Shown here: positions 7,760 through 21,749 of the stretch, in pieces
How positions within the stretch are numbered: position 1 is the first letter of the stretch
Layout: the number at the start of each line of letters is the position of its first letter
Translations under genes and position numbers: made by a program
Notes under the pieces: model-generated
Seen by the model: the letters and a program-made list of their open reading frames with translations, nothing else
Told to the model about the DNA's origin: nothing
The model's database searches: none
Assembly: GCF_000003815.2 (NCBI RefSeq)
Contig: NC_049980.1
Span: forward strand, 144,981-208,980
Length of the DNA stretch: 64,000 bases
DNA from: Branchiostoma floridae
Lineage: Eukaryota > Chordata > Leptocardii > Amphioxiformes > Branchiostomatidae
Direction: 5' to 3'

Positions 7760-10700
7760 ATGGCGGGGCGACATCAGCACACTCCCGACCGTCCTGCTGG
7801 CTTAGCGGGGCGAGAGCTCCCTCCCGTTCCCCCTGTTGCCGTGGCACAGCGGCTTCAGCACATACCTACCTGGAACCCTCCAGCAGGCCGAAATACCAGC
7901 GGGGAAAAGGGACGACAAGGCAAAACCAACGCACCACAGGTTGGAGACAAACAAGTAGATGCACAAGAATTCATCAATCAGCTTCACGGCAACCCTACGT
8001 ACGATACTGGAGGGGATACAGGTCAGTACCCATACTTCATTGTGTGTTATAGCCTGTCTGAATTTTTTTTCCGTCCCCAAAATTTTGAATGGAAATCCTG
8101 TTGAAGGCATGACGATCCTAGGGGGTCCGGGAGTATGCTGCCAAGGAAAATTTTGAAATCTAGACCCTCTGAAATGCTAATTCCTTTATTTTGAGGGGCA
8201 TACTTTGCTGGTAGACTCAGCTTGGTTCAATTAATGTCTTAGTATGCCCGTTTTTGTCCGTCACAGAGGATGGAATAGGCAAACTTTTTGTCCGTCCCTA
8301 GCTGCAAAAAACGGAAGGTTGGATGCTGGCTAGAACCCTGCTTCACTACGTACAAATCATTGTAGCCTCCTTCGCAGACGTCTGGAGGCTACCAGCTGTG
8401 GCGTTTATTTTTGGAGGAGCGCTTATTCGCGGTGTTCAACATGGGCTAAGGGTCTCTATGCTCGGAAGTAGCATTTTACCGCACAGAGAACCATAGCCCA
8501 TGTTGAACATCACGAATCAGTGCTACCCAAAAACATAAACGCTACCACTTCAGAAGTCTGCAGAGGAGGCTATTGAAAGAATAGGAAGCATATTTTACAG
8601 CTGTATTAGAAGCAAGAAAAGTTTAACATGTACATACTGAAATACATTAGCTAATGTGGATGTAGTAAGATATCAATTTATCACTTGTATTTCATAACCT
8701 GCTTGTAAGAGAAATAATATAATATGTTTATTGCAAGTTCTTGCCCAAGGGCTAATTTAAGGTACAAACAACATGTATAACAAGGAAAATACAAAGGCCG
8801 GTGCTAGGAACTACATTCTTTGACTATGCTGTGCTACTGAAGTGTACATTATACTGGTTTTGTTGGGTTTGACTTCTTCATTTTAGGCAGTGGAAGACGA
8901 ATTTACCCACTTCTTTTATAATGTGTGGGTTCTTTGATTTTAATAATATAATTGATTTCTCGTTGTCAGGAATAGTTAGAAAGTAAGCGTGTATTTTGGA
9001 TACACGAATAAATAGTTGGTTTCTTATATCATCATAAAAAGAAGAATTAGAGATAAAATGACTCTAGTATTCCACAGCATTTGAGGGGCAATATTTACCA
9101 ATCCTGTCAGACACAGGTAGCTTCATATATCTCCCCTTTTCTATTCCCAGGGGGGTGGGCACTAATTCTAACACTTTATTAGTCGCAATAAAAAATGGGA
9201 AAACCCGGCGGCAATCATGCGGGATCGCCCGGTGACATTGTCCCATCTCCCGGCAACGCGGAATTGCTGTCCGTAAGTGCCAGCGGCGGTGTTGGGACCA
9301 TGCCTCCCCGAAAGATGACCGAGCAAGTTGTGGTGGGTCCCGGGAGCTAGTGAGTTCATGGGCCGGCGAGAGCTGTGAAACTCCGGCGGCGATTATGCGG
9401 GGTCGCCCACCCGATGCTAGCCTTGCAATGTCCGTCACGGGCTCTAGATCGGGCGGCGAGAGCCGTGCTAAGTATGCCTCCAATGTTGGTCGGGCCCGTT
9501 GCCGATCAAGACCGCGGAGACACGCCGGCGGGGGCAGTGGCCGGCACGCAGAGCAAGGTCGCTCGGTAATGCCCGGCAGGCGGACTCGCCGCTAAGGACT
9601 CCTCCAACCTTGATCGGGCCCGTTGCCGATCGAGAGCGCGGGGACTCGCCTGCGGGGGCAGTGGCCGGCACGCCGAGCAAGGCCGCTCGGTAATGCCCGG
9701 CAGGCGGGCTCGCTGGCAGAGACTCCTCCAATGTTGGTTGGTGCCGTTGATGACCGAGAGCTGTGGCGAAACGCATGCTTTAGCGGATGCCCAGGCCTCC
9801 AGGCGCCGAGGAGAAGCCCGTAAACTCTTCCGGTCGCGTAAGGCAGGTCCCCGGTCGCGTAAGACAGGTCCCAGTGACCGCTTTGGCGGGCCGGGTGTCG
9901 GTGCCAAAGGCCGGTTGGCGCCGATCGGGGTCGACCGGGTCGGGTCCGGACAGCCGGCGGTGATCAGGTCACCAGGCCCCGGCACCCACCCCGTGGAGCA
10001 TTTTTCAAAAAAGTGCTTTACAGGGTGTCTGACCATGTCGTGGCTCGCTCAATCTACCTTGAGAGAGTGGTCGTTTTTTGACTAGCTCGGCTTTCCGCGG
10101 AGCCTGACGGGTTTCTGCCGGTGGCTGTCGAGTCCGGGATGGATCGGCAGTGACCGTGGGTGTGCGGGGAACATGCCTACGGAGAGAAAAGTCGGGATGG
10201 TCCGGTGACTTTTCCCTCTCCGGCGGTGCCAACGGACTCTGCACCGGCCGAGCTGTCAGCCGTGGGCGGGCGGTTTGTGTCTCCGACTCCAGCCGACTTC
10301 GATCGCGGTGGTGGAGTTCCCGGGCCGTCAAGGCACGAGAGAACGATGCTGCCGTGTCAGGTAGGTCCATGTGACCGCACTGGCGGACGAAGTAACGGCA
10401 CACGGGGCCGGAGTGGACCGTACCGACCCTGACCGTGTTGCAGGCATGGCGTAATACATTAAGTATTGGCCATGTATTAGCTATGGTACGGCGGTAGTAG
10501 GACCCTGACGGGTTTCTGCCGGTGGCTGTCGAGTCCGGGATGGATCGGCAGTGACCGTGGGTGTGCGGGGAACACGCCCACGGAGAGAAAAGTCGGGATG
10601 GTCCGGTGACTTTTCCCTCTCCGGCGGTGCCAACGGGCTCTGCACCGGCCGAGCTGTCAGCCGTGGGCGGGCGGTTTGTGTCTCCGGCTCCAGCCGACTT

Positions 10701-13700
10701 CGATCGCGGTGGTAGAGTTCCCGGGCCGTCAAGGCACGAGAGAACGATGCTGCCGTGTCAGGTAGGTCCATGTGACCGCACTGGCGGACGAAGTAACGGC
10801 ACACGGGGCCGGAGTGGACCGTACCGACCCTGACCGTGTTGCAGGCATGGCGTAATACATTAAGTATTGGCCATGTATTAGCTATGGTACGGCGGTAGTA
10901 GGACCCTGACGGGTTTCTGCCGGTGGCTGTCGAGTCCGGGATGGATCGGCAGTGACCGTGGGTGTGCGGGGAACACGCCCACGGAGAGAAAAGTCGGGAT
11001 GGTCCGGTGACTTTTCCCTCTCCGGCGGTGCCAACGGGCTCTGCACCGGCCGAGCTGTCAGCCGTGGGCGGGCGGTTTGTGTCTCCGGCTCCAGCCGACT
11101 TCGATCGCGGTGGTAGAGTTCCCGGGCCGTCAAGGCACGAGAGAACGATGCTGCCGTGTCAGGTAGGTCCATGTGACCGCACTGGCAGACGAAGTAACGG
11201 CACATGGGGCCGGAGTGGACCGTACCGACCCTGACCGTGTTGCAGGCATGGCGTAATACATTAAGTATTGGCCATGTATTAGCTATGGTACGGCGGTAGT
11301 AGGACCCTGACGGGTTTCTGCCGGTGGCTGTCGAGTCCGGGATGGATCGGCAGTGACCGTGGGTGTGCGGGGAACACGCCCACGGAGAGAAAAGTCGGGA
11401 TGGTCCGGTGACTTTTCCCTCTCCGGCGGTGCCAACGGGCTCTGCACCGGCCGAGCTGTCAGCCGTGGGCGGGCGGTTTGTGTCTCCGGCTCCAGCCGAC
11501 TTCGATCGCGGTGGTGGAGTTCCCGGGCCGTCAAGGCACGAGAGAACGATGCTGCCGTGTCAGGTAGGTCCATGTGACCGCACTGGCGGACGAAGTAACG
11601 GCACACGGGGCCGGAGTGGACTGTACCGGCCCTGATCGTGTTGCAGGCATGGCGTAATGCATTAAGTATTGGCTATGTAACCGAGACGGGCCTGCTTGGC
11701 CGGCGGGGGACTTTTAACCCGGCACCCGAGGCCCACCCCTCTCGGTGGGGCTCGCCGGCAAGAACTCCTCCAATGTTGGTCGGGCCCGTTGCCGATCAAG
11801 ACCGCGGAGACACGCCGGCGGGGGCAGTGGCCGGCACGCCGAGCAAGGTCGCTCGGTAATGCCCGGCAGGCGGACTCGCCGGTAAGGACTCCTCCAATCT
11901 TGATCGGGCCCGTTGCCGACCGAGAGCGCGGGGCCTCGCCTGCGGGGGCAGTGGCCGGCACGCCGAGCAAGGCCGCTCGGTAATGCCCTGCAGGCGGGCT
12001 CGCTGGCAGAGACTCCTCCAATGTTGGTTGGTGCCGTTGATGACCGAGAGCCGGGTCGGGTCCGGACAGCCGGCGGTGATCAGGTCACCAGGCCCCGACA
12101 CCCACCCCGTGGAGCGTTTTTCAAAAAAGTGCTCTACAGGGTGTCTGACCATGTCGTGGCTCGCTCAATCTACCTTGAGAGAGTGGTCGTTTTTTGACTA
12201 GCTCGGGAAACGGCAGCGAGTGGCGAGTGATCGCACACTCTCTCGCCAGTCGTTTTGCTGCCCCGCCGACCAGGCGGCCACTCCCAGCGAGGGCAGCCGG
12301 AGGTCGACATCCTACTTGTCGGCGGTTTTCATAAGTAGCACCTCGGACACTTCCTCCGCGGAGGCTGAGTCTGGGTCCACCGCCATTTCTACCTGCGTTG
12401 CCAAACAGTGTCTAATTGTGGCACACCTCGTTTTTGAGACAGGAGAGGTGAAGTGATACAGCCTGCATTCTTAGCCGCAAGACAAGTTCTTGTTGTCGTT
12501 GAGCAAGAACGTGAGCTCGTGGTATGGAGCGGGCGGTCCGCCCGCACCGAACCACTCTTGGAACGTAGTCGGGCCCGTAAAAAGCGCGGGCCCCACGTTC
12601 GGGCGCCTTGAGTGCGCGCCCGTCGTTCCTACTTGCCTTTATGAGGCGCCAGTCGTTTTGCTACCCCGCCGACCAGGCTGCCACTCCCCGCGAGGGCAGC
12701 CGGAGGTCGACAACCGGCTAGGAAGGCGGCCGTTCCTCCGTTCCTGCGGGCGAGGACGTCCGTGCCGAGGGCGTCCGGAAGCAGCGCCGGGGCCGGCCTC
12801 CGCGGAGGCAGCGCCCGGGTCAACCAGGGACCCAAACGGCGACGGCTCGCCCCTTCCGTCTGCGTGCGAGTACGCCTTGCGGTCTTGGCAGTTCGAGACC
12901 CGGCCGTCCGTCTGCTCGGCAGACGCGTCGGTCGTGAGAGTGCGGGACCGTTCCCTCGCGGGGACGGCTCGGGCGTTGAAGGGAAGCAACGGTCAGGTGT
13001 GGTCGGGAGTTCTGCGCTCAGGCTCCCGTGGGTTTGCGGCACCGCTGCGCATTCCCAATTTACTGTAGCTACGGACTTTGGCGGTGGCGGTTCTCGGGTG
13101 CTTGGCGCGGTCCCGGTCGAGACGCCTAGAGCGTCTCCCGGCGCGACTGTGACGCCCGCCCGCCTTGCCACCAGGGCGTCCTCGCTACCTGGTTGATCCT
13201 GCCAGTGGTCATATGCTTGTCTCAAAGATTAAGCCATGCACGTGCAAGTTCAACTGTCCCAGTGAAACTGCGAATGGCTCAGTAAATCAGTTATGGTTCC
13301 TTTGATCGTCACATCCTACATGGATAACTGTGGTAATTCTAGAGCTAATACATGCGGAAGAAGCGCCGACCTCACGGTTTGGCGTGCATTTATTTAGACC
13401 AAGATCCAACCAGGGGTTCGCCCTGGTCCTTTGGTGACTCTGGATAACCCAGCCGATCGCACGGTCTTCGGACCGGCGACAGATCATTCGAATGTCTGCC
13501 CTATCAACTATCGATGGTAGGTTCTGTGCCTACCATGGTGGCAACGGGTGACGGGGAATCAGGGTTCGGTTCCGGAGAGTTAGCCTGAGAAACGGCTAAC
13601 ACATCCAAGGAAGGCAGCAGGCGAGCAAATTACCCACTCCCGACTCGGGGAGGTAGTGACGAAAATAACAATACGGGACTCTTTCGAGGCCCCGTAATTG

Positions 13701-16700
13701 GAATGGGTACGCTTTAAATCCTTTAACGAGGATCTATTGGAGGGCAAGTCTGGTGCCAGCAGCCGCGGTAATTCCAGCTCCAATAGCGTATATCAAAGTT
13801 GTTGCGGTTAAAAAGCTCGTAGTTGGATCTTGGGACCGGGCTTGCGGTCCGCCGCGAGGCGTGTCACTGCTCGTCCCCGGCCTTTCCTGCCGGATTCTCC
13901 CCGGTGCTCTTCACTGAGTGCCTCGAGGTACCGGAGCGTTTACTTTGAAAAAATTAGAGTGTTCAAAGCAGGCCTGGCGCCTGAATTGTGGTGCATGGAA
14001 TAATGGAATAGGGCCTCGGTTCCTATTTCGTTGGGTTTCGGAACGTGAGGTAATGATCAAGAGGGACGGACGGGGGCATTCGTATTGCGGCGGGAGAGGT
14101 GAAATTCTTGGATCGCCGCAAGACGAACCACTGCGAAAGCATTTGCCAAGAATGTTTTCATTGATCAAGAACGAAAGTTGTGGGCGCGAAGGCGATAAGA
14201 CACCGCCCTAGTCACAACCATAAACGATGCCAACCAGCGATCCGCCGGCGTTGCTTCGGTGACCCGACGGGCTGCTCCCGGGAAACCTGAGTTTTCGGGC
14301 TCCGGGGGAAGTATGGTTGCAAAGCTGAAACTTGAAGGAATTGACGGAAGGACACCACCAGGAGTGGAGCCTGCGGCTTGATTTGACTCGACACGGGGAA
14401 ACTCACCCGGCCCGGACACAGTAAGGATTGACAGATTGCGAGTTCTTTCTTGATTCTGTGGATGGTGGTGCATGGCTGTTGACGGGGGTTGCTCTAGCTC
14501 TGGTTCGGCGATCCCGCTCGATCTCGCCGTAACTAGAGGTACCAGCTGGCTGTTAGCCAAAGACGAGATGGAGCAATTACGGTCTGTGATGCCCTTACAT
14601 GTCCGGGACCACACGCTCGCTACAATGAAGGCATCAGCGAGTGTTTCGCCTTCGCCGAAAGGTGCGGGTAACCTGCTGAACCGCCTTCGTGATAGGGACT
14701 GGGAATTGGAATTAATTCCCATGAACGAGGTATTCCCAGTAGATGCGTGTCATCAGCACGCGTTGATTAAGTCCCTGTCCTTTGTACACACCGCCCGTCG
14801 TTACTACCGATTGAATGGTTTTGTGAGGTCGGCCCTCTTTGGCAACCGCCGGGAGGATCGCTGAGAAACCGATCAAACTTGATCATTTAAGGGAAGTAAA
14901 ACTTGTAACGGTTTCCGTAGGTGAACCTGCGGAAGGTTCATTACCATACAAAGTAGACACTCGTGTCTACTTGTACACACCTCGTGGCAAGGAGCGGGCG
15001 GTGCCCCTGGCCTCCCACCCCGACCCACTCTTCCTTACCGCCTGGACAAGGTGGCGCTCCGACGGTGCTCTCGCGTCAATCGCTTGTCGTCCGTCTTAAG
15101 ACGGCGGCGAGCGCAGGCGGAGAGTCAGGGGCGGGGCGGGACCCGGCAGCTCCCTTGGAACGTTGGTCGGGCGCCTTGAGTGCGCGCCCGTCGTTCCCCA
15201 GACTCAATCAGCGAGCCGCTCCGAGTAGCCTGGTCGAGGACGGAGTCAGGTCCTCCCGGCGAAAAGTTTAGGGCGGGCGAGCGAAAATGGGCACCTATGT
15301 CCTGGCGGAGGGGCGTCGCGTCGCGGGTTTGCGCGGAATGGGGTCGCGGTTTAGTCTCACGGCGGGGCCTAGGTGAGACGGCTCTTCCCCGGCACCCCGG
15401 CTTGGCGTTTCGGTCTCTGACTCGATGCAATCGGTCTTGCGGACGAGTGACCTAACCTTAAGCGTCGGACTTCGAGCGGGCGTCCCGCGGTCCAAGGCCT
15501 CCTTTGGGCAGAGGGGAGGACTGCTGTCTCGGTCCCGCCGGCCAGCCACCGGCGGTCTCGACCGGATGCTAAACTCCCCGAGGTCTTAAAGAGAAGGGCG
15601 GGCGTCACCGTCCCCTCTGCGTCTAACCGGGTTCGGCCGGCAGGGATGCTCAGGGGGCGTGAGGCGGTCTTCGCAGCGGGTCCCGGTTCGCGGAGCGACC
15701 CCCAGCCCTTCCGCTCGTTTGCGCCCTTCACCACGAAGGGCACCTTCCACGTCTCGGAAACGATAGTGCCGAAAGACAGGCTTTCTATGTGTTCAGCTTC
15801 CTGGCGGAGACGCTCTCCCCGGTAGAGACTGTGCTCTGTAGAATGTCTTCCCTGCGAGCCCGTGTCACGGGTGTCCAGGGGGGCACCCCGCGATACTGGG
15901 GTGTCTCCGCCGATAAGAAGATCGGAGGGACTACAGGGTTACGATGCTGTACGAAGGCAGGGGTAGGTGCGCGGGCCGGGCCTGTTGAAGACCAGACGTC
16001 CGGCGGGGGCGGTGACCGGCGCCCCGAGCTCGCCGCTCGGTAATGCCCGGCAGGCGGGCTCGCCGGTTAAGACTCCTCCAATGTTGGTCGGGCCCGTTGC
16101 CGACCAAGACCGAGGGGACACGCCGGCGGAGGCCGGGCGGGTGCCCCGAGCAACCCTGCTCGGTAATACCCGGCAGGCGTTCCTCGCCGGCAAGAACTCC
16201 TCCAATGTTGATCGGGCCCGTTGTCGACCAAGACCGCGGGCGCACGCCGGCCGGGGCAGTGGCCGGCGCCCCGAGCAGGGCCGCTCTGTAATGCCCGGCA
16301 GGCGTGCTCGCCGGCAAGAACTCCTCCAATGTTGATCGGGCCCGTTGCCGACCAAGCCTGAGGAGAAACGCCGGCGGGGGCAGTGGCCGGCACGCTGAGC
16401 AAGGCCGCTCGGTAATGCCCGGCAGGCGGGCTCGCCGGCAAGAACTCCTCCAATGTTCGTCGGGCCCCTTGCCGACGGAGAGCCCGGGGGCACGCCGGCG
16501 GGGGCAGTGGCCGGCACGCTGAGCAAGGCCGCTCGGTAATGCCCGGCAGGCGGGCTCGCCTGCAAGAACTCCTCCTATGTTCGTCGGGCCCCTTGCCGAC
16601 GGAGAGCCCGGGGGCACGCCGGCGGGGGCAGTGGCCGGCACGCTGAGCAAGGCCGCTCGGTAATGCCCGGCAGGCGGGCTCGCCGGCAAGAACTCCTCCT

Positions 16701-19700
16701 ATGTTCGTCGGGCCCCTTGCCGACGGAGAGCCCGGGGGCACGCCGTCGGGGGTAGTGGCCGGCACGCTGAGCAAGGCCGCTCGGTAATGCCCGGCAGGCG
16801 GGCTCGCCGGCAAGAACTCCTCCAATGTTGGTCGGGCCCCTTGCCGACGGAGAGCCCGGGGGCACGCCGGCGGGGGCAGTGGCCGGCACGCTGAGCAAGG
16901 CCGCTCGGTAATGCCCGGCAGGCGGGCTCGCCGGTAAGGACTCCTCCGATCTTGGTCGGGGTCGAGTCCGGACAGCCAGCGGTGATCAGGTCACCAGGCT
17001 CCGGCACCCACCCCGTGGAGCGTTTTTCAAAAAAGTGCTTTACAGGGTGTCTGACCATGTTGTAGGTCGCTCAATCTACATTGAGAGAGTGGACGTTTTT
17101 TGACCTGTTCGAAGTCAGCCAGCCTTCCGCGGACCCTGACGGGTTTCTGCCGATGGCTGGCCAGTCCGGGACTGGTCGACAGGGACCGTGGCTGAGCGGG
17201 CAAGATTTCCGCACGGTGAAAAGACGGGCTTGCCCGGTGACTTTTCCCTGTTTGGCGGGTCCAACGGGCTTTGCACCGGGCAGCGGTGAAGCCTTGGGCG
17301 GGCGGTGTGTGACCTTTGCACCGCCCGATTGCAATCGTGTCAGAGGAAGCCCCGGGCTGGCCATGCGAGCGAGCACGATGCGGCGGTGGCAGGAAGGTCC
17401 CGCCGAGCCTCGAGGTGACGCCAAGGCACGGTTCCTTTGTACAGGCCTTGTTACATCGGATGCATGACCGGATGTCGGCCATAACGGTGACCGGCAGCTC
17501 ACGGCGGCGGAACGAGGTCGGCGGCGGTTGGAGGCGCCTCTCGCCGCCGATGACTACCTCGTAGCGGGCGCCGTGTCCACCACAGGCGGGCGCAGCGCGC
17601 TTTTTTCGGCCTAAGTTCGGCCTCCCGGTGCCGAGACCAAGCCCGAGACCGTGTCTCGGTGGTTTTTCAAAAAAGTGCTCTACAGGGTGTCTGACCATGT
17701 CGTGGGTCGCTCTGCCTACCTAGGTAGCGCGCGTAGTCCAGTGGTTAGCGGCCTTGCCTCTGGAACTAGAAGCCGTGGGTTCGATCCCGGCTGTGTCGTT
17801 CACCCGACATGCACGCTACCGGAAAGGGTTGCAGTCCTTAGGACAGGACGTTAAGCCGTGGTCCATTGTTCATGGTAGGGCGATTGATCTGTGAGCTGTT
17901 GTGGGATGTTGATTTGATTGCTCACGGACCAATAAGGAGGGGAATGTTCGTATGTTTTAGGAGATGGCAAGCGGGGACGACGAAGAGATAGAGGAGGACA
18001 TTGAAATGTATCTCCGGGAAGCAGCGGTGGCTGAGAGAGCCGAGGCGGCCGGGGCGAATGGAACTGTTGGGCAGAATATCGCTGGGGAGGTCGACAGCGA
18101 CGACAGCGACGATTTTGACTTGTATTCCGTCACGAAGCAGGTCAGAGGTGCCCGAGTCGGGGAGTTTTCACGACGGAACAAAGCGAGGGGTCGAGCTGAA
18201 CGGCCGTGGGCATCCGTCAGTGCCGGTGAGGTTCATCCGTACAAGCCCCAGAAATTCAGGGCACCCGGGCCCGTCGGCCCGAGGCGAGCCGAGGACAACC
18301 GGAATGAACTGTCTTTCTTTCTGGAGGTGTTGAACCAGTATCTTATCCGGTATATCGTGCGTTGCACCAATAGGTACGCCCGGCAGAGGCGAAGGGTATT
18401 CCGCAAAGAAAGGCGCTCGCGTTGGTCACCCACCTCGACCACCGAGCTGAAAGCCTTTTTGGGCTGCATGATATGCGCCGGCTACACGTACCAACCGAGA
18501 CTCGATTTGTACTGGTCTGATGACGATGACGTTGGGTGTACGCTGATGAAAAGGACTTTTCCTTCTCATCGTTTTCGTCAAATCTTGCGGTACCTTCACT
18601 ACTCCCCCGAAGGGTTCTATCCTCCTGGCAGCGAGCGTCTGAAGAGTTTTAAAGCAAGGGAGAAGTTGGGCCGAGTTATGAAGGTACGCAAAGTTATGGA
18701 GAGGGTCAGTCGGAATAGTAGCCGTGCCCGCCATGTCGGCGAGCATCTCGTAGTTGACGAAGCGACAGTAGCGTTTAGGGGAAGGCACAGTCTTCGGCGC
18801 TACAACCCTTCGAAGCCGACAAAGTATGGATACTGTCTCCGAGCTCTGGCTGAGACAGACGGCTACATATTGTCCGACGAAGTGTGTGGAGGGCGTGTGG
18901 ACCCAGAGGACATGTCGCCGGACGAAAGATGCATGCACGGCATTGGTGACGAATATGTCAGCCCTCTTGATCTGAAGCCCGCCCGAGTCGTCAATAGACT
19001 GACGATGCCATTTCAGGGATGCTACCGCACCGTTTATTGCGATTCCTACTACACAGGAGTCCAACTGGCAGATTACCTTTTCACCAAAGACACTTACATT
19101 GTGGGGACGGTGAGACGAAATGCGTCAGGCCTACCGACGGAAGGGCATCCCGTTCCACGCAAACCTAGGCCTGGGCCAGGCAGGCCGCCATTGCTGAAGT
19201 TCCCAGACCCCTATCCTAAGAGTGTACCGAGAGGCACTTCTGTCAGGTACCACGACGGGCCGGTAACGGTTGTGAAATGGCAAGACACCAAATCGCTCAT
19301 ACTGCTTTCTACGGGAACTAGTGTCTGTGCTCCCGACGAACTAACCACCAGGCGATGCAAGGGTCCCAGTGGTGCTACCCGACTAGAGGTGACATGTCCT
19401 GCAGCGATGAACATGTACAATCTCCACTACAAGGCGGTGGACACAGCCGACCAGCTCCGGGCAGGGTACGAATTCGGTCGGCCTTCGAAGAAATGGCACA
19501 GGCAAATCTTCTGGTACGCCATGAACAAAGCTGTGGTGAACGCCTTCTTGAACTGGAAGATATACACTGCTGGCAGACAGGATCTCCCAGCACATAGGGT
19601 TGCCCAGCTGAGCTTTCGACGGGCGTTAGTGCGGCAGCTAATCGGCAATTTCTCCGCAAGGCACCGAACACCCACTGCGAGCGTGGCCCTGCCAAGAGTC

Positions 19701-21749
19701 ATCGGCAACCACCGGCAGATAAGCCAAGGGAAACCCACTAAAGCCTGTCGTTACTGCGCAAAAGCTGGCCGTCATATGCCACGAGCGAAACGGTGCAGAC
19801 CGTTCGAGACTGTCTACAAATGCGAGATGTGCAACGTGTCCGTATGCTACGTCAGTTTGCGCCCCGAGTGTTGGCGTGAGCACTTGCAGGACATGCAGGG
19901 CGATGCATAGATGGTTTAGGACCGAGGAAAGTGTGTTGCAAGACCGGCCAAATGTTGTAAAGTTACTGGGAGAAGATGCGATTCTGTCCGGTGGCAACTT
20001 TGTGTCTAACCGGCAACTACCGATAATCCGACTTGTAAAGTTTTAGGACTAAGGAAAATGTGTTGCAAGACCGGCCAAAGGTTGTAAAGTTACTGGGAGA
20101 AGATGCGATTCTGTCCGGTGGAAACTTTGTGTCTAACCGGCAACTACCGATAATCCGACTTGTAAAGTTATAGGACTAAAGAAAATGTGTTGCAAGACCG
20201 GCCAAAGGTTGTAAAGTTACTGGGAGAAGATGCGATTATGTCCGGTGGAAACTTTGTGTCTAACCGGCAACTACCGATAATCCGACTTGTAAATTTATAG
20301 GACTAAAGAAAATGTGTTGCAAGACCGGCCAACGGTTGTAAAGTTACTGGGAGAAGATGCGATTCTGTCCGATGGCAACTTTGTGTCTAACCGACAAATA
20401 CCGATACTCTGCGTAATAAAGTGTTAATTCATTCAGTCATCCATCCATCCATCAATCCACCCATTCATCCATTCATTCATCCATCCATCCATCTATCCGT
20501 CCATTCATTCATTCATCTATTCATTCATTCATTTATTCCTTGAATGGGTTCTAGCTGTATGTAGGGTGTTGAGATATGATATTCCGATATCTGTAAAGCT
20601 TGTGCGAAAAGTCTCTTTTTATAAAGAATCTGAAGCGAACTTAAGGTAACATTCCATCGTTTCTGTGTTGCAGACTACGAAGCCATAGATGATGATGATT
20701 GGTGCATGCGAGCACGTGACTTTCTGACCTGCTCTCGACTGTTCAGCGGTGTCAAGGCAATTGTCGTCATGGCAACGCTGACGATATCCCTGATACTCAT
20801 CGTGATGCCGTTTACCACTCCACGTCCGGATTTTGATATGGTGAGTATTCATCATATCGTTTTTATATTGTAAAATTTACAAAACATGATAACGTCACAA
20901 TCGATCACGTGGTTGATGTTAATGTTGCAATCAAAACAAATGCTTTACAAAAGCACATCGAAAATTTATATGCAGACAAACAAAGCAAAAGACAAAAAAC
21001 AAAGTAAGGTACTACACACTAACAGACATGATACGAAATATAACCAAAAAAATATGTATATATACTGGTAGATTGTGAGCAGTTTCTCCGTGTCAAACTG
21101 GTTTCCTGGAAGATTGGTTACTTTGAATCTCTTGGTTTAATGAGTAATTGAACATGCTGTTTAAGTTTGGCGTTGTATGGATCTGATAGTAATGAGAAAA
21201 CTGTACCTTCATGATAAATGAACATTAGCATGAAGATCATTAAGGTCTGTGACAAATCTGTATATTGTTACATATTACAACGTTATGTTGTGTTCTGTAG
21301 ATTATGTCTACTAGCTTTAGTGATATTTTGTGCGACGGTAAAACCAATAAACCAAATGTTTCTCTTTTTTTTTTTGACAACAGCTGGAGAAGCAATCGGC
21401 CTTGACCAGTCGTCTGCAGGGTCAACTGTCGATTCTTGAGCAACGTCTCGAGAACCGAACAGCGCTCCTGAAGGATCTGAAGTCAAGCCACGCCCAGCAA
21501 TCATCGATGTTCAGCCGCTTGGAGGACCAAGTATCGTCCCTTGGAGAACATCTCGACAACCGCACTGCACTGACCAAACGCCTGGGGGACCAAGTATCAA
21601 CCCTTGAAGAACGCCTCGTTAACCGCACTGCACTGATCAGCCGCCTGGAGGACCGAATGTCGCTCCTTGAGAAAGATAGTCCTGTCGTGGTCGAGCGAAA
21701 CCACGAAAATAAGAAGACCTTTGTCATTGACTTGTCAAAATTTGGGTGA
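7760..21749 (+). CDS. Gene B: type II membrane coiled-coil protein with NPTY tail, split by the rDNA-bearing transposon
   Basis: Proposed exons are 7760-8021 (phase 1 end), 20674-20840 (phase 1 in, phase 0 out) and 21384-21749 with stop. Exon 1 ends in [12 protein letters not shown]. Its start is uncertain: the homologous position in gene C has an ATG that is missing here, so I used the in-frame ATG at 7760 (7661 is also in frame). Exon 2 encodes an acidic cytoplasmic stretch and one membrane segment ([16 protein letters not shown]). Exon 3 is coiled coil with repeats such as [18 protein letters not shown], closely related to gene C exon 3. It runs into a stop instead of a donor, and no Link exon follows before gene C, so the protein lacks a Link domain. 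Intron 1 is about 12.65 kb, almost all of it the insertion at 9168-20427. It could be a decaying paralogue of C. Confidence 0.55.
8363..8573. mobile_element. Foldback MITE in gene B intron 1
   Basis: The left arm TAGCCTCCTTCGCAGACG and the right arm CTGCAGAGGAGGCTA pair imperfectly. The inner arms GTTCAACATGGGCTA and TAGCCCATGTTGAAC are perfect complements. It is non-coding. Confidence 0.7.
8574..9167. other. AT-rich intron sequence left of the giant element
   Basis: Ordinary AT-rich intron sequence in which I see no gene. It ends at CTAA (9168-9171), the proposed left target site, where the sequence turns abruptly GC-rich within about 30 bases. Confidence 0.5.
9172..9187 (+). repeat. Proposed left terminal inverted repeat
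   Basis: CACTTTATTAGTCGCA directly follows CTAA. It matches the reverse complement of the right end over 14 bases, with a two-base insertion (GT). It lies within 30 bases of the start of GC-rich, rDNA-spacer-like sequence. Confidence 0.65.
9188..9480 (+). other. GC-rich left arm of the element, internally duplicated
   Basis: The sequence CGGCGGCAATCATGCGGG (9207-9224) is repeated in varied form at about 9383-9400, so the arm holds a degenerate tandem of roughly 177 bp. It leads into the 124-bp spacer repeats. I see no gene. Confidence 0.45.
9481..9745 (+). repeat. 124-bp rDNA spacer repeats, block 1
   Basis: About two units, with the landmark GTAATGCCCGGCAGG at 9566 and 9690 (124 bases apart). 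The units are closely related to blocks 2 (11758-12020) and 3 (15967-16950). Confidence 0.85.
9936..10090 (+). promoter_or_regulatory. Conserved spacer box A (candidate RNA polymerase I spacer promoter or terminator)
   Basis: The box, from GGTCCGGACAGCCGGCGGTG through TTTTTCAAAAAAGTGCT and CAGGGTGTCTGACCATGT to GTTTTTTGACTAGCTCGG, is almost identical to the one at 12051-12206 just before the 5' ETS. Related copies lie at 16957-17105 and 17662-17725. Duplicated gene promoters inside rDNA spacers are well known, for example in Xenopus. Promoter identity here is inferred from position and conservation; the T-rich runs would also fit a terminator. Confidence 0.4.
10102..11680 (+). repeat. 401-bp rDNA spacer repeat array
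   Basis: Nearly four units with exact 401-base spacing (CCTGACGGGTTTCTGCCGG at 10102, 10503, 10904, 11305). Units are almost identical, which implies recent homogenisation or expansion. A diverged single copy lies at 17130-17560. The similar 90-107-residue open frames repeated here on both strands are by-products of GC-rich repeats. Confidence 0.95.
11758..12020 (+). repeat. 124-bp rDNA spacer repeats, block 2
   Basis: Two units with GTAATGCCC landmarks at 11856 and 11980, nearly identical to block 1. They are followed by the second conserved box, so 124-bp units plus box form a duplicated module. Confidence 0.9.
12051..12206 (+). promoter_or_regulatory. Conserved box B, candidate 18S gene promoter
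   Basis: Same sequence family as box A. It lies about 980 bases upstream of the 18S 5' end, and after it the sequence changes to non-spacer character (5' ETS). That position makes it the best candidate for the polymerase I initiation region. I cannot identify the start base. Confidence 0.4.
12207..13185 (+). other. Probable 5' external transcribed spacer
   Basis: GC-rich sequence between box B and the 18S gene. It holds a direct repeat: CGCCAGTCGTTTTGCTGCCC near 12244 recurs as CGCCAGTCGTTTTGCTACCC near 12646, with about 70 bases of similarity. The segment CGCCTTGAGTGCGCGCCCGT (12604-12623) recurs downstream of the 18S near 15171. No protein gene is credible here. Confidence 0.6.
13186..14943 (+). 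rRNA. Divergent 18S (small subunit) ribosomal RNA gene
   Basis: It begins TACCTGGTTGATCCTGCCAG and ends GGAAGGTTCATTA; the usual 3' end is GGAAGGATCATTA. Conserved landmarks include GCCAGCAGCCGCGGTAATTC near 13752, GAATTGACGGAAGG near 14337 and GTACACACCGCCCGTCG near 14785. It is about 1758 nt, roughly 70 short of a normal animal 18S. The loss is mostly in 14479-14560, where the conserved segment following GCATGGC is replaced by unrelated sequence. The helix GTTGTG (14177-14182) / CACAAC (14213-14218) replaces the common GTTAGA/TCTAAC, three matched pair changes. Against function, the near-universal CAGATACC reads AAGACACC (14197-14204) and the 3' decoding strand reads AAAACTTGTAACGG (14898-14911) instead of AAAAGTCGTAACAAGG. 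It is either a pseudogene or a diverged element-borne rRNA. Confidence 0.9.
14944..15960 (+). other. Region downstream of 18S (ITS1-like); no 5.8S or 28S found
   Basis: GC-rich spacer sequence. I searched by eye for the 5.8S core (CGATGAAGAACGCAGC) and for 28S landmarks and found none before the 124-bp spacer repeats resume. A block near 15171-15195 matches part of the 5' ETS. The unit therefore appears to carry 18S alone. Confidence 0.6.
15967..16950 (+). repeat. 124-bp rDNA spacer repeats, block 3 (seven full units)
   Basis: Unit starts at 16067, 16191, 16315, 16439, 16563, 16687, 16811 and 16935 are exactly 124 bases apart, with partial units at both ends. Each contains GGGGCAGTGGCCGGC or a variant, then GGTAATGCCCGGCAGGCG. 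Confidence 0.95.
16957..17105 (+). promoter_or_regulatory. Conserved spacer box C
   Basis: Third copy of the box family, with CCCACCCCGTGGAGCGTTTT and TTTTTCAAAAAAGTGCT, followed by a diverged 401-type unit. The order 124-bp repeats, box, 401-type unit repeats the order seen at 9481-10500. Confidence 0.4.
17130..17560 (+). repeat. Diverged single copy of the 401-type spacer unit
   Basis: It begins CCCTGACGGGTTTCTGCCG and keeps GGTGACTTTTCCCT and GGGCGGGCGGT in the same order as the 401-bp array, but with many changes. Confidence 0.75.
17662..17725 (+). promoter_or_regulatory. Partial conserved box D
   Basis: Only the core of the box family, TTTTTCAAAAAAGTGCTCTA followed by CAGGGTGTCTGACCATGTCG, is present. 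It abuts the SINE-like module and lies about 240-300 bases before the transposase start. Confidence 0.35.
17727..17880 (+). mobile_element. tRNA-derived SINE-like module upstream of the transposase
   Basis: It has an A-box-like TAGTCCAGTGG (17734-17744), a B-box GGTTCGATCCC (17778-17788), then CAGGACGTTAAGCCG, which resembles the body of the SINE at 32797-33225 (TAGGACGTTAAATGG). I read it as a SINE fragment captured inside the element, not as a tRNA gene, because the acceptor stem and trailer do not pair cleanly. It may lie in the transposase promoter region. Confidence 0.55.
17964..19910 (+). CDS. piggyBac-family transposase, intact
   Basis: A 648-residue cut-and-paste DDE transposase, expected to excise and insert at TTAA. 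Residues 1-60 are acidic and low complexity. The catalytic core shows D265 in [13 protein letters not shown]360 in VYCDSYYTG, and D493/D496 in [14 protein letters not shown] (D441) is another family motif. The C-terminus is a cysteine-rich cross-brace (C595, C598, C611, C620, C623, C628, C636, with H604 and H640), as in piggyBac. There is no stop, frameshift or missing catalytic residue, so the gene is recent or selected. The ATG at 17964 gives full length. It has no introns and lies on the same strand as the 18S gene. The flanking spacer and 127-bp repeats suggest it mobilises the surrounding rDNA. A domesticated PGBD-like host gene is possible but less likely given adjacent TTAA termini. Confidence 0.95.
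   Translation: MASGDDEEIEEDIEMYLREAAVAERAEAAGANGTVGQNIAGEVDSDDSDDFDLYSVTKQVRGARVGEFSRRNKARGRAERPWASVSAGEVHPYKPQKFRAPGPVGPRRAEDNRNELSFFLEVLNQYLIRYIVRCTNRYARQRRRVFRKERRSRWSPTSTTELKAFLGCMICAGYTYQPRLDLYWSDDDDVGCTLMKRTFPSHRFRQILRYLHYSPEGFYPPGSERLKSFKAREKLGRVMKVRKVMERVSRNSSRARHVGEHLVVDEATVAFRGRHSLRRYNPSKPTKYGYCLRALAETDGYILSDEVCGGRVDPEDMSPDERCMHGIGDEYVSPLDLKPARVVNRLTMPFQGCYRTVYCDSYYTGVQLADYLFTKDTYIVGTVRRNASGLPTEGHPVPRKPRPGPGRPPLLKFPDPYPKSVPRGTSVRYHDGPVTVVKWQDTKSLILLSTGTSVCAPDELTTRRCKGPSGATRLEVTCPAAMNMYNLHYKAVDTADQLRAGYEFGRPSKKWHRQIFWYAMNKAVVNAFLNWKIYTAGRQDLPAHRVAQLSFRRALVRQLIGNFSARHRTPTASVALPRVIGNHRQISQGKPTKACRYCAKAGRHMPRAKRCRPFETVYKCEMCNVSVCYVSLRPECWREHLQDMQGDA
19914..20409 (+). repeat. 127-bp subterminal tandem repeats (four units)
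   Basis: The landmark TGTTGCAAGACCGGCCAA occurs at 19934, 20061, 20188 and 20315, exactly 127 bases apart. The array starts just after the transposase stop and runs into the right terminal repeat. Such subterminal repeats often bind the transposase; that is an inference here. Confidence 0.95.
20410..20427 (+). repeat. Proposed right terminal inverted repeat with TTAA target site
   Basis: TGCGTAATAAAGTG (20410-20423) is followed by TTAA (20424-20427). It is the reverse complement of the left terminus apart from the two-base insertion there. After TTAA the sequence is a CATC/CATT microsatellite and host intron. Confidence 0.65.
20428..20540. repeat. CATC/CATT microsatellite
   Basis: Imperfect tetramer run immediately outside the right TTAA, in intron 1 of gene B. 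Confidence 0.9.

Follow-up and report, generated by a model that had tools for sequence, protein, structure and literature searches.

The locus examined here raises the question of whether an 18S rRNA gene and a piggyBac-class transposase, which lie in one GC-rich block of the genome of the lancelet Branchiostoma floridae, are parts of a single mobile element or neighbors brought together by separate events. The window (the whole stretch of 64,000 nucleotides that was analyzed) corresponds to C2:144981-208980 of the searched B. floridae genome (513 Mb, 431 contigs). A first-pass annotation had proposed that the block is one transposon from terminus to terminus, with a captured rRNA gene inside. 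As far as the unit is concerned, this proposal was borne out: positions 9172-20423 form one piggyBac-superfamily transposon of 11,252 bp, and the unit recurs at several genome sites. We are nearly certain that the element is an autonomous-looking piggyBac-superfamily DNA transposon with a left arm of ribosomal-DNA-type sequence.

Boundaries, architecture and transposase

The block is GC rich, as had been stated (0.53-0.72 across the block versus 0.33-0.47 in windows of the left flank), and the sequence at about 20674-20841 resembles an exon, with splice-like edges. The left edge consists of CTAA followed by CACTTTATTAgtCGCA (9168-9187), and the right edge of TGCGTAATAAAGTG followed by TTAA (20410-20427). 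The 14-base inverted match reported at these edges is present, with a two-base insertion in the left end; short terminal inverted repeats of this kind, which are a mark of piggyBac elements, are kept in the other copies. The match had also been estimated to be rare by chance, and a score of 15 was reached in only 2 of 20,000 shuffles of both 100-base edges; it was also reached by 20 of up to 20,000 random host-window pairs, a count that includes low-complexity matches. A chance match was rejected because the same termini head and close other genomic copies. A shorter inner piggyBac was rejected as well, since the block contains no end-like site at ≤3 mismatches apart from the two termini; an exact second occurrence of either terminus was not found elsewhere in the 64-kb window. 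The 127-bp repeats reach the right edge as four full units, the last of which ends in register with the right terminus.

The features of the window copy are collected in Table 1. By analogy, block A may be a polymerase I spacer promoter, and block B is a candidate gene promoter, a function suggested by its sequence. The last ~220-250 bases of the ETS-like segment match the upstream sequence of four core-bearing 18S loci of the same genome at 84-86%. The outer spacer arrays presumably derive from rDNA as well. The tRNA-like segment carries unscored motifs that we take to be A and B boxes, and ARAGORN found no tRNA in 17722..17825.

Table 1. Features of the window copy of the element and of its edges (positions are those of the window)
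Feature	Position	Strand	Basis
Left target-site edge CTAA	9168..9171		TTAA at six other readable left edges
Left terminal inverted repeat CACTTTATTAgtCGCA	9172..9187	+	identical 16 bases head 7 copies genome-wide
Left arm, spacer-like, with 124-bp repeats at 9477-9761	9188..9934	+	in all 7 left-ended copies
Promoter-like block A, 156 bp, 98% to block B	9935..10090	+	self-comparison
401-bp tandem repeats, 3.9 copies, 97-99.5% alike	10099..11679	+	repeat search and self-comparison
124-bp tandem repeats, 2.4 copies	11748..12051	+	repeat search and self-comparison
Promoter-like block B, 156 bp, 979 bases upstream of 18S	12051..12206	+	self-comparison
5' external transcribed spacer (ETS)-like segment, 979 bp	12207..13185	+	similarity to other 18S loci upstream
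18S rRNA gene, end to end but degenerate	13186..14943	+	Rfam and alignments
18S lesion, conserved 3' core partly deleted and replaced	14473..14536	+	all five covering family copies
ITS1-like segment	14944..15999	+	downstream sequence of four core-bearing 18S loci, 82-89%
124-bp tandem repeats, 7.8 copies	16000..16960	+	repeat search
Promoter-like block C, diverged copy	16960..17110	+	self-comparison
Diverged 401-bp unit, about 75%	17131..17400	+	self-comparison
Promoter-like fragment D, 60 bp	17662..17721	+	self-comparison
tRNA-like folded segment with A-/B-box-like motifs	17722..17825	+	sequence and fold
piggyBac-class transposase, 648 aa, no internal stop	17964..19910	+	ORF and domain
Four 127-bp subterminal units with TTGTAAAGTT-type motifs	19915..20422	+	repeat analysis
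Right terminal inverted repeat TGCGTAATAAAGTG	20410..20423	+	sequence read and exact genome matches
Right target-site edge TTAA	20424..20427		sequence read and copy comparison

Two small features of the interior were also recorded. A 31-base exact direct repeat is present at 12599-12629 (ETS-like) and 15167-15197 (ITS1-like), and the same 31-mer is found in the ITS1-like part of three of the four core-bearing 18S loci, with N at that place in the fourth. The 233-bp tRNA-like/leader segment (17731-17963) shows 0% divergence among the five copies compared; C192a has the identical sequence and C192b a single difference, a uniformity that possibly reflects constraint or chance.

The transposase is intact as an ORF, in agreement with the initial reading, and matches Pfam DDE_Tnp_1_7 with E=1.4e-63, which passes the cut-off. 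By sequence comparison with solved proteins, it matches piggyBat (E=1.2e-23) and 6x67 (E=4.7e-15), which is listed as 'Transposase' and which we take to be the piggyBac transposase. D265, D360 and D493 of the ORF align with aspartates of the solved proteins, and these positions are presumably the catalytic aspartates of the predicted enzyme. The predicted structure was unusable (pLDDT 35). Full ORFs without stops are present in four copies of the window family, but dN exceeds dS in five of the six pairs of copies, and purifying selection is thus not apparent between them. The best protein match was a B. floridae piggyBac-derived protein identical to the protein of the C183 copy. Among the matches listed, relatives with 62-66% identity over most of the protein occur in Branchiostoma lanceolatum and Branchiostoma belcheri, another with 61% lies on a 2.7-kb JGI contig, and none of the 17 homologues listed is named Pokey. 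A 27-kb contig of the searched genome (C363) holds 12 related transposase fragments with 41-74% identity, ten of them with stops, and represents a graveyard of the family.

Copies and insertion sites in the genome

Nine regions were compared, of which seven contain the element and two lack it, which gives eight copies together with the window; matches of ≥60 columns were counted in the self- and copy-comparisons (≥30 in the comparison of the second family described below). The left terminus, with any two bases allowed at the variable positions, was found at seven places, all with GT and all with the element behind it; three places were found with the pattern read backwards. The exact right terminus occurs at seven places, five of them within element copies, and at none when read backwards. 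The 14-mers at C1:26825643 and C17:10931182 have neither TTAA nor a listed similarity to the element and were set aside as chance occurrences.

The first-pass annotation had implied that inverted termini some kilobases apart would recur in the genome, and both ends were found in the correct orientation, 9.5-13.2 kb apart, in four of the eight copies (window, 11,252 bp; C10, 9,545 bp; C15, 11,600 bp including 761 N; C183, 13,222 bp). The other four end in truncations, gaps or the contig end. Insertion at TTAA, also anticipated, is seen at 11 of the 12 readable edges, the exception being the CTAA at the left edge of the window copy. The left flanks of the window, C10, C15, C183 and C3 copies are mutually unrelated. 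The left flank of C193 is that of C3 (100% over 1500 bp), the right flank of C192b is that of C183 (99.2% over 1394 columns), and only 56 bp are common to C192a and C3. The pairs C183/C192b and C3/C193 may be haplotypes or duplicates. Because of these shared flanks, the genome is counted as holding at least eight copies at five or six independent sites.

The C15 copy of the window family is inserted in a dispersed host repeat. When its flanks were joined at one TTAA, they matched five genome places at 3 mismatches. At four of these (L044-L047), which are free of the element, the alignment passes through the junction with 75.6-83.2% identity over 716-753 columns; in the fifth (L048), the junction is also crossed by an alignment of 406 columns (73.4%) that starts 19 bases before it. 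The junction is TTAA in four of the five element-free sequences and TGAA in L045. These sites are paralogues, 17-25% diverged, rather than alleles.

Divergence between copies is low in all parts of the element, with segment means of 0.24-1.05% that are alike for 18S, ETS, spacer, transposase and ends. The ranges are 0.28-0.46% for 18S, 0-0.5% for ETS, 0.3-0.6% for the transposase, 0.2-1.0% for the right end, 0-1.3% for the left arm and 0-1.6% for the right spacer. From the similarity of these low values it follows that the unit spread recently and as a whole.

It could be proposed instead that a short piggyBac inserted later beside a dispersed rDNA fragment and that the left-end match is due to chance, a hypothesis which can draw on the scattering of rDNA fragments in genomes, on the two extra bases in the left end and on the fact that this end is without the subterminal motifs of the right end. 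However, this left end, extra bases included, begins the same arrangement at seven places, six of them preceded by TTAA, and no alternative left end (≤3 mismatches) lies closer to the transposase. Element-free paralogues align with the C15 flanks when these are joined without the whole unit, and segmental duplication of one locus with shared flanks is excluded for five sites. Such a two-event history is in our estimate extremely improbable. The preferred reading is that of one element, with the rDNA part inside its termini at unrelated sites of the same genome, as the initial annotation had supposed. In C15, C183, C192a and C192b, the ITS1-like segment is present twice, and in the window copy once; the 438 bp between the two segments match neither the window element nor Rfam.

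Decay of the 18S gene and a second piggyBac family

The claim that the element carries an 18S rRNA gene was correct in extent, with a correction as to condition: Rfam places the gene end to end at 13186-14943 (1457.5 bits, model 1-1831), but it is degenerate, not intact. Even with E allowed up to 1, Rfam found no 5.8S or 28S in 9100-20500. The window is without a 28S match, and the 11 stretches scanned gave no rRNA family besides 18S. The window, C15, C183 and C192a copies have the 18S from end to end; in C192b and C193, a gap or the end of the contig interrupts it. The C10 copy has 211 bases of 18S left, and the C3 copy has lost ETS and 18S, the segment between two 124-bp arrays being gone; both keep spacer. 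At gathering scores, Rfam reported the 18S in C15, C183, C192a, C192b and C193, with the C10 remnant unreported. Since most or all of the 18S is gone from C10 and C3, the gene is not required for movement.

Other 18S loci were located in the genome contigs by a conserved-core pattern, an approach by which further loci may be missed and whose first version returned nothing usable. At least four core-bearing loci were found, on C1, C10, C13 and C15. Those on C1 and C10 are full length (1816 bases), that on C15 is missing 21 bases near the 5' end, and that on C13 has a 41-base deletion near the 3' end that takes the decoding-centre stretch with it, a loss that speaks against membership of the C13 copy in the native rDNA. 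The 18S of the window family differs from these other loci by 6.6-7.3%. This distance also bears on the idea that rDNA reads were misjoined to a transposon in the assembly, which several copies and the second family might invite because they adjoin N gaps. An inner 18S so distant is no ordinary rDNA put in the wrong place, the sequence between the termini is free of N in the window, C10 and C183 copies, and private substitutions distinguish the copies; we give next to no credence to an assembly artefact.

Compared with the C1 18S, the window 18S has deletions of 37, 13 and 5 bases and several shorter ones, through which the 3' core is partly lost; of the 1739 sites compared, 114 are substituted. 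The lesion of the 3' core is common to all five copies that cover it (window, C15, C183, C192a and C192b), as is the loss of two bases before GGTTTCC. The decoding-centre stretch, AAGTCGTAACAAGG in C1, reads AACTTGTAACGG in the window and AACTCGTAACGG in C15, C183, C192a and C192b; a C-to-T change there and a single-base deletion near 13661 are confined to the window among the covering copies. As a further measure, seven 18S controls were fetched, of which five foreign eukaryotic ones were aligned (L003-L007) and two left out (L001 and L002). In the 1067 columns that are invariant in the five controls, with at least three covering, the window differs in 143 and C183 in 140, versus 57 (C1), 56 (C10), 71 (C13) and 71 (C15) at the core-bearing loci. 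The mismatch at conserved positions is 5.9% in the window, 8.9% in control L003 and 1.3-3.9% in the other four controls; because L003 exceeds the window, this value alone is no proof that the 18S is dead. The 18S is judged dead on three other grounds: the deletion in the core, the altered decoding centre and the comparison within the same genome.

It has to be considered whether the element-borne 18S is nevertheless a working dispersed gene that supplies rRNA to ribosomes. The window 18S is present end to end with promoter-like blocks upstream, a second family with a similar transposase lies near core-bearing 18S that is full length at one site, and, of the seven changed conserved pairs outside the lesion, two are compensated, which exceeds the expectation of pure decay, so that some of the divergence may have arisen while the gene still functioned. 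However, four of these pairs are broken and one is a wobble, the unit is without 5.8S or 28S, and the window family has neither an intact conserved core nor an intact decoding centre. We consider a working gene very unlikely; judged by its sequence, the 18S of the window family is a dead, decayed passenger.

A GC bias in the decay was suggestive at all 756 conserved positions, but it was gone at the 653 control-invariant sites (13/344 versus 12/309) and was also absent in the comparison with the C1 and C10 18S (39/814 versus 51/925). One control, NZ_CP050525.1 (L007), is a 1,764-bp Acinetobacter baumannii 'plasmid' record that matches 87% of the 18S query at 79% and looks like a eukaryotic 18S deposited as a plasmid.

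The transposase search of the genome gave 46 matches, among them three open frames at 63% identity, on C15, C9 and C10. The corresponding places are C15:1659094-1669219, C10:3033771-3044788 and C9:5047002-5048921 (L041, L043 and L054-L056). The three copies are identical over 1928-1948 bases and then pass into unrelated flanks after CTTCTGACCGGTAAAGAG, which is followed by TTAA in C15, TTAT in C10 and GTGT in C9; this right end occurs three times in the genome at ≤1 mismatch (twice when read backwards). Upstream of it and on the same strand, an 18S core lies at a distance of 11.0 kb in C10 and 10.1 kb in C15, with N runs between, and the conserved-core pattern found no 18S core on C9. A promoter-like fragment lies directly upstream of the second-family transposase in C10, where C15 and C9 have N. 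The existence of a second 18S-carrying piggyBac family is supported, not proven, because of the N gaps between 18S and transposase and because its left end was not found.

The 18S genes of C10 and C15 show no substitution over 1795 sites, and those of C1 and C13 none over 1775 sites. The two types differ by 0.77-0.80%, and the full-length C10 gene of the second lineage is 0.77% from the C1 type. At the 14 differing sites, the window has the C1 state in nine and the C10 state in one; this suggests that the C1 type is older and the C10 type derived. It is conceivable, though we think it rather unlikely, that two lancelet piggyBac lineages have repeatedly taken up a whole 18S with its promoter region, or renew it from the rDNA array, and would act as mobile rRNA genes that spread transcribable 18S units and are themselves expressed from ribosomal promoters.

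Relation to known elements, possible origin and meaning

A long-term link between mobile elements and rDNA is known from R1/R2-type retrotransposons, which insert into rDNA by target-primed reverse transcription, and the Pokey family inserts into 28S rRNA genes. R1/R2 elements enter rDNA, whereas the lancelet element carries rDNA-type sequence elsewhere. R1/R2-type elements are also named in the available portion of one of the Pokey papers (PMC3849761). According to the available portions of these papers, Pokey belongs to the piggyBac superfamily and targets TTAA, with CTAA at 0.85% of insertions (PMC3849761), is 4.5 to 10 kb long, occurs outside rDNA too, and contains rDNA-derived repeats, IGS 'A' and ITS2 'C', upstream of the transposase (PMC3849761, PMC4912750). 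The lancelet element resembles it in superfamily, in its TTAA target with rare CTAA, and in having rDNA-derived sequence upstream of the transposase (18S by Rfam, ETS- and ITS1-like segments by their matches to other 18S loci). The same portions describe short spacer repeats in Pokey and mention no rRNA gene, whereas the lancelet element contains an end-to-end 18S within about 8 kb of rDNA-type sequence, of which about 2.9 kb matched other 18S loci and the outer spacer is assigned by inference. The host is a chordate in one case and Daphnia in the other.

With piggyBac from Trichoplusia ni and with piggyBat, the lancelet element shares the transposase domain, the aligned aspartates and the TTAA edges, as well as the asymmetric ends that characterize both, whereas the sequence similarity of the transposases is low. 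To our knowledge, piggyBac and piggyBat are compact and without host rDNA. Among the literature matches listed, seen as titles and abstract openings, covering little of the subscription literature and including PMC10257491 and PMC3902484, there was no transposon with an 18S gene and no rDNA-bearing lancelet piggyBac.

By the model of the piggyBac superfamily, the encoded DDD transposase would cut the unit out at its 14-base ends and paste it into TTAA, and the 18S would travel as cargo between the termini. The 127-bp right subterminal units with TTGTAAAGTT-type motifs are likely to be extra transposase-binding sites that probably help excision. As to origin, an ancestral element in or next to an rDNA unit may have taken in neighboring rDNA and lost the 5.8S-28S part; for the uptake, template switching in post-excision repair would suffice, and so would the use of a second copy's end. 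The spacer and promoter-like arrays may have been kept because they aid expression or nucleolar access, as has been proposed for Pokey, and transcription may be driven or insulated by the spacer blocks, a role that the Pokey authors propose for the Pokey repeats.

The element extends gene capture by transposons to an end-to-end rRNA gene and shows an actual way for 18S sequence to become scattered in an animal genome. Such dispersed 18S is a potential source of error in copy-number counts, FISH probing and 18S barcoding. Together with Daphnia Pokey, the element suggests that piggyBac elements have become tied to rDNA more than once, and the reason for the tie (spacer promoters, nucleolar access or shelter in the array) becomes testable. 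Because the second family lies near a full-length 18S at one site, direct expression tests are possible.

Some minor searches also touched the rDNA-type part. A search with an ORF from the 124-bp array gave no match, and scans of viral collections and a phage collection gave nothing usable. An ORF that spans the ETS/18S junction, used as a query, returned three proteins, none with usable context. Spurious proteins on a B. lanceolatum chromosome and another contig (P0020 and P0019) match this junction ORF; the B. lanceolatum match seems to leave the 18S after its first bases and perhaps belongs to a related element.
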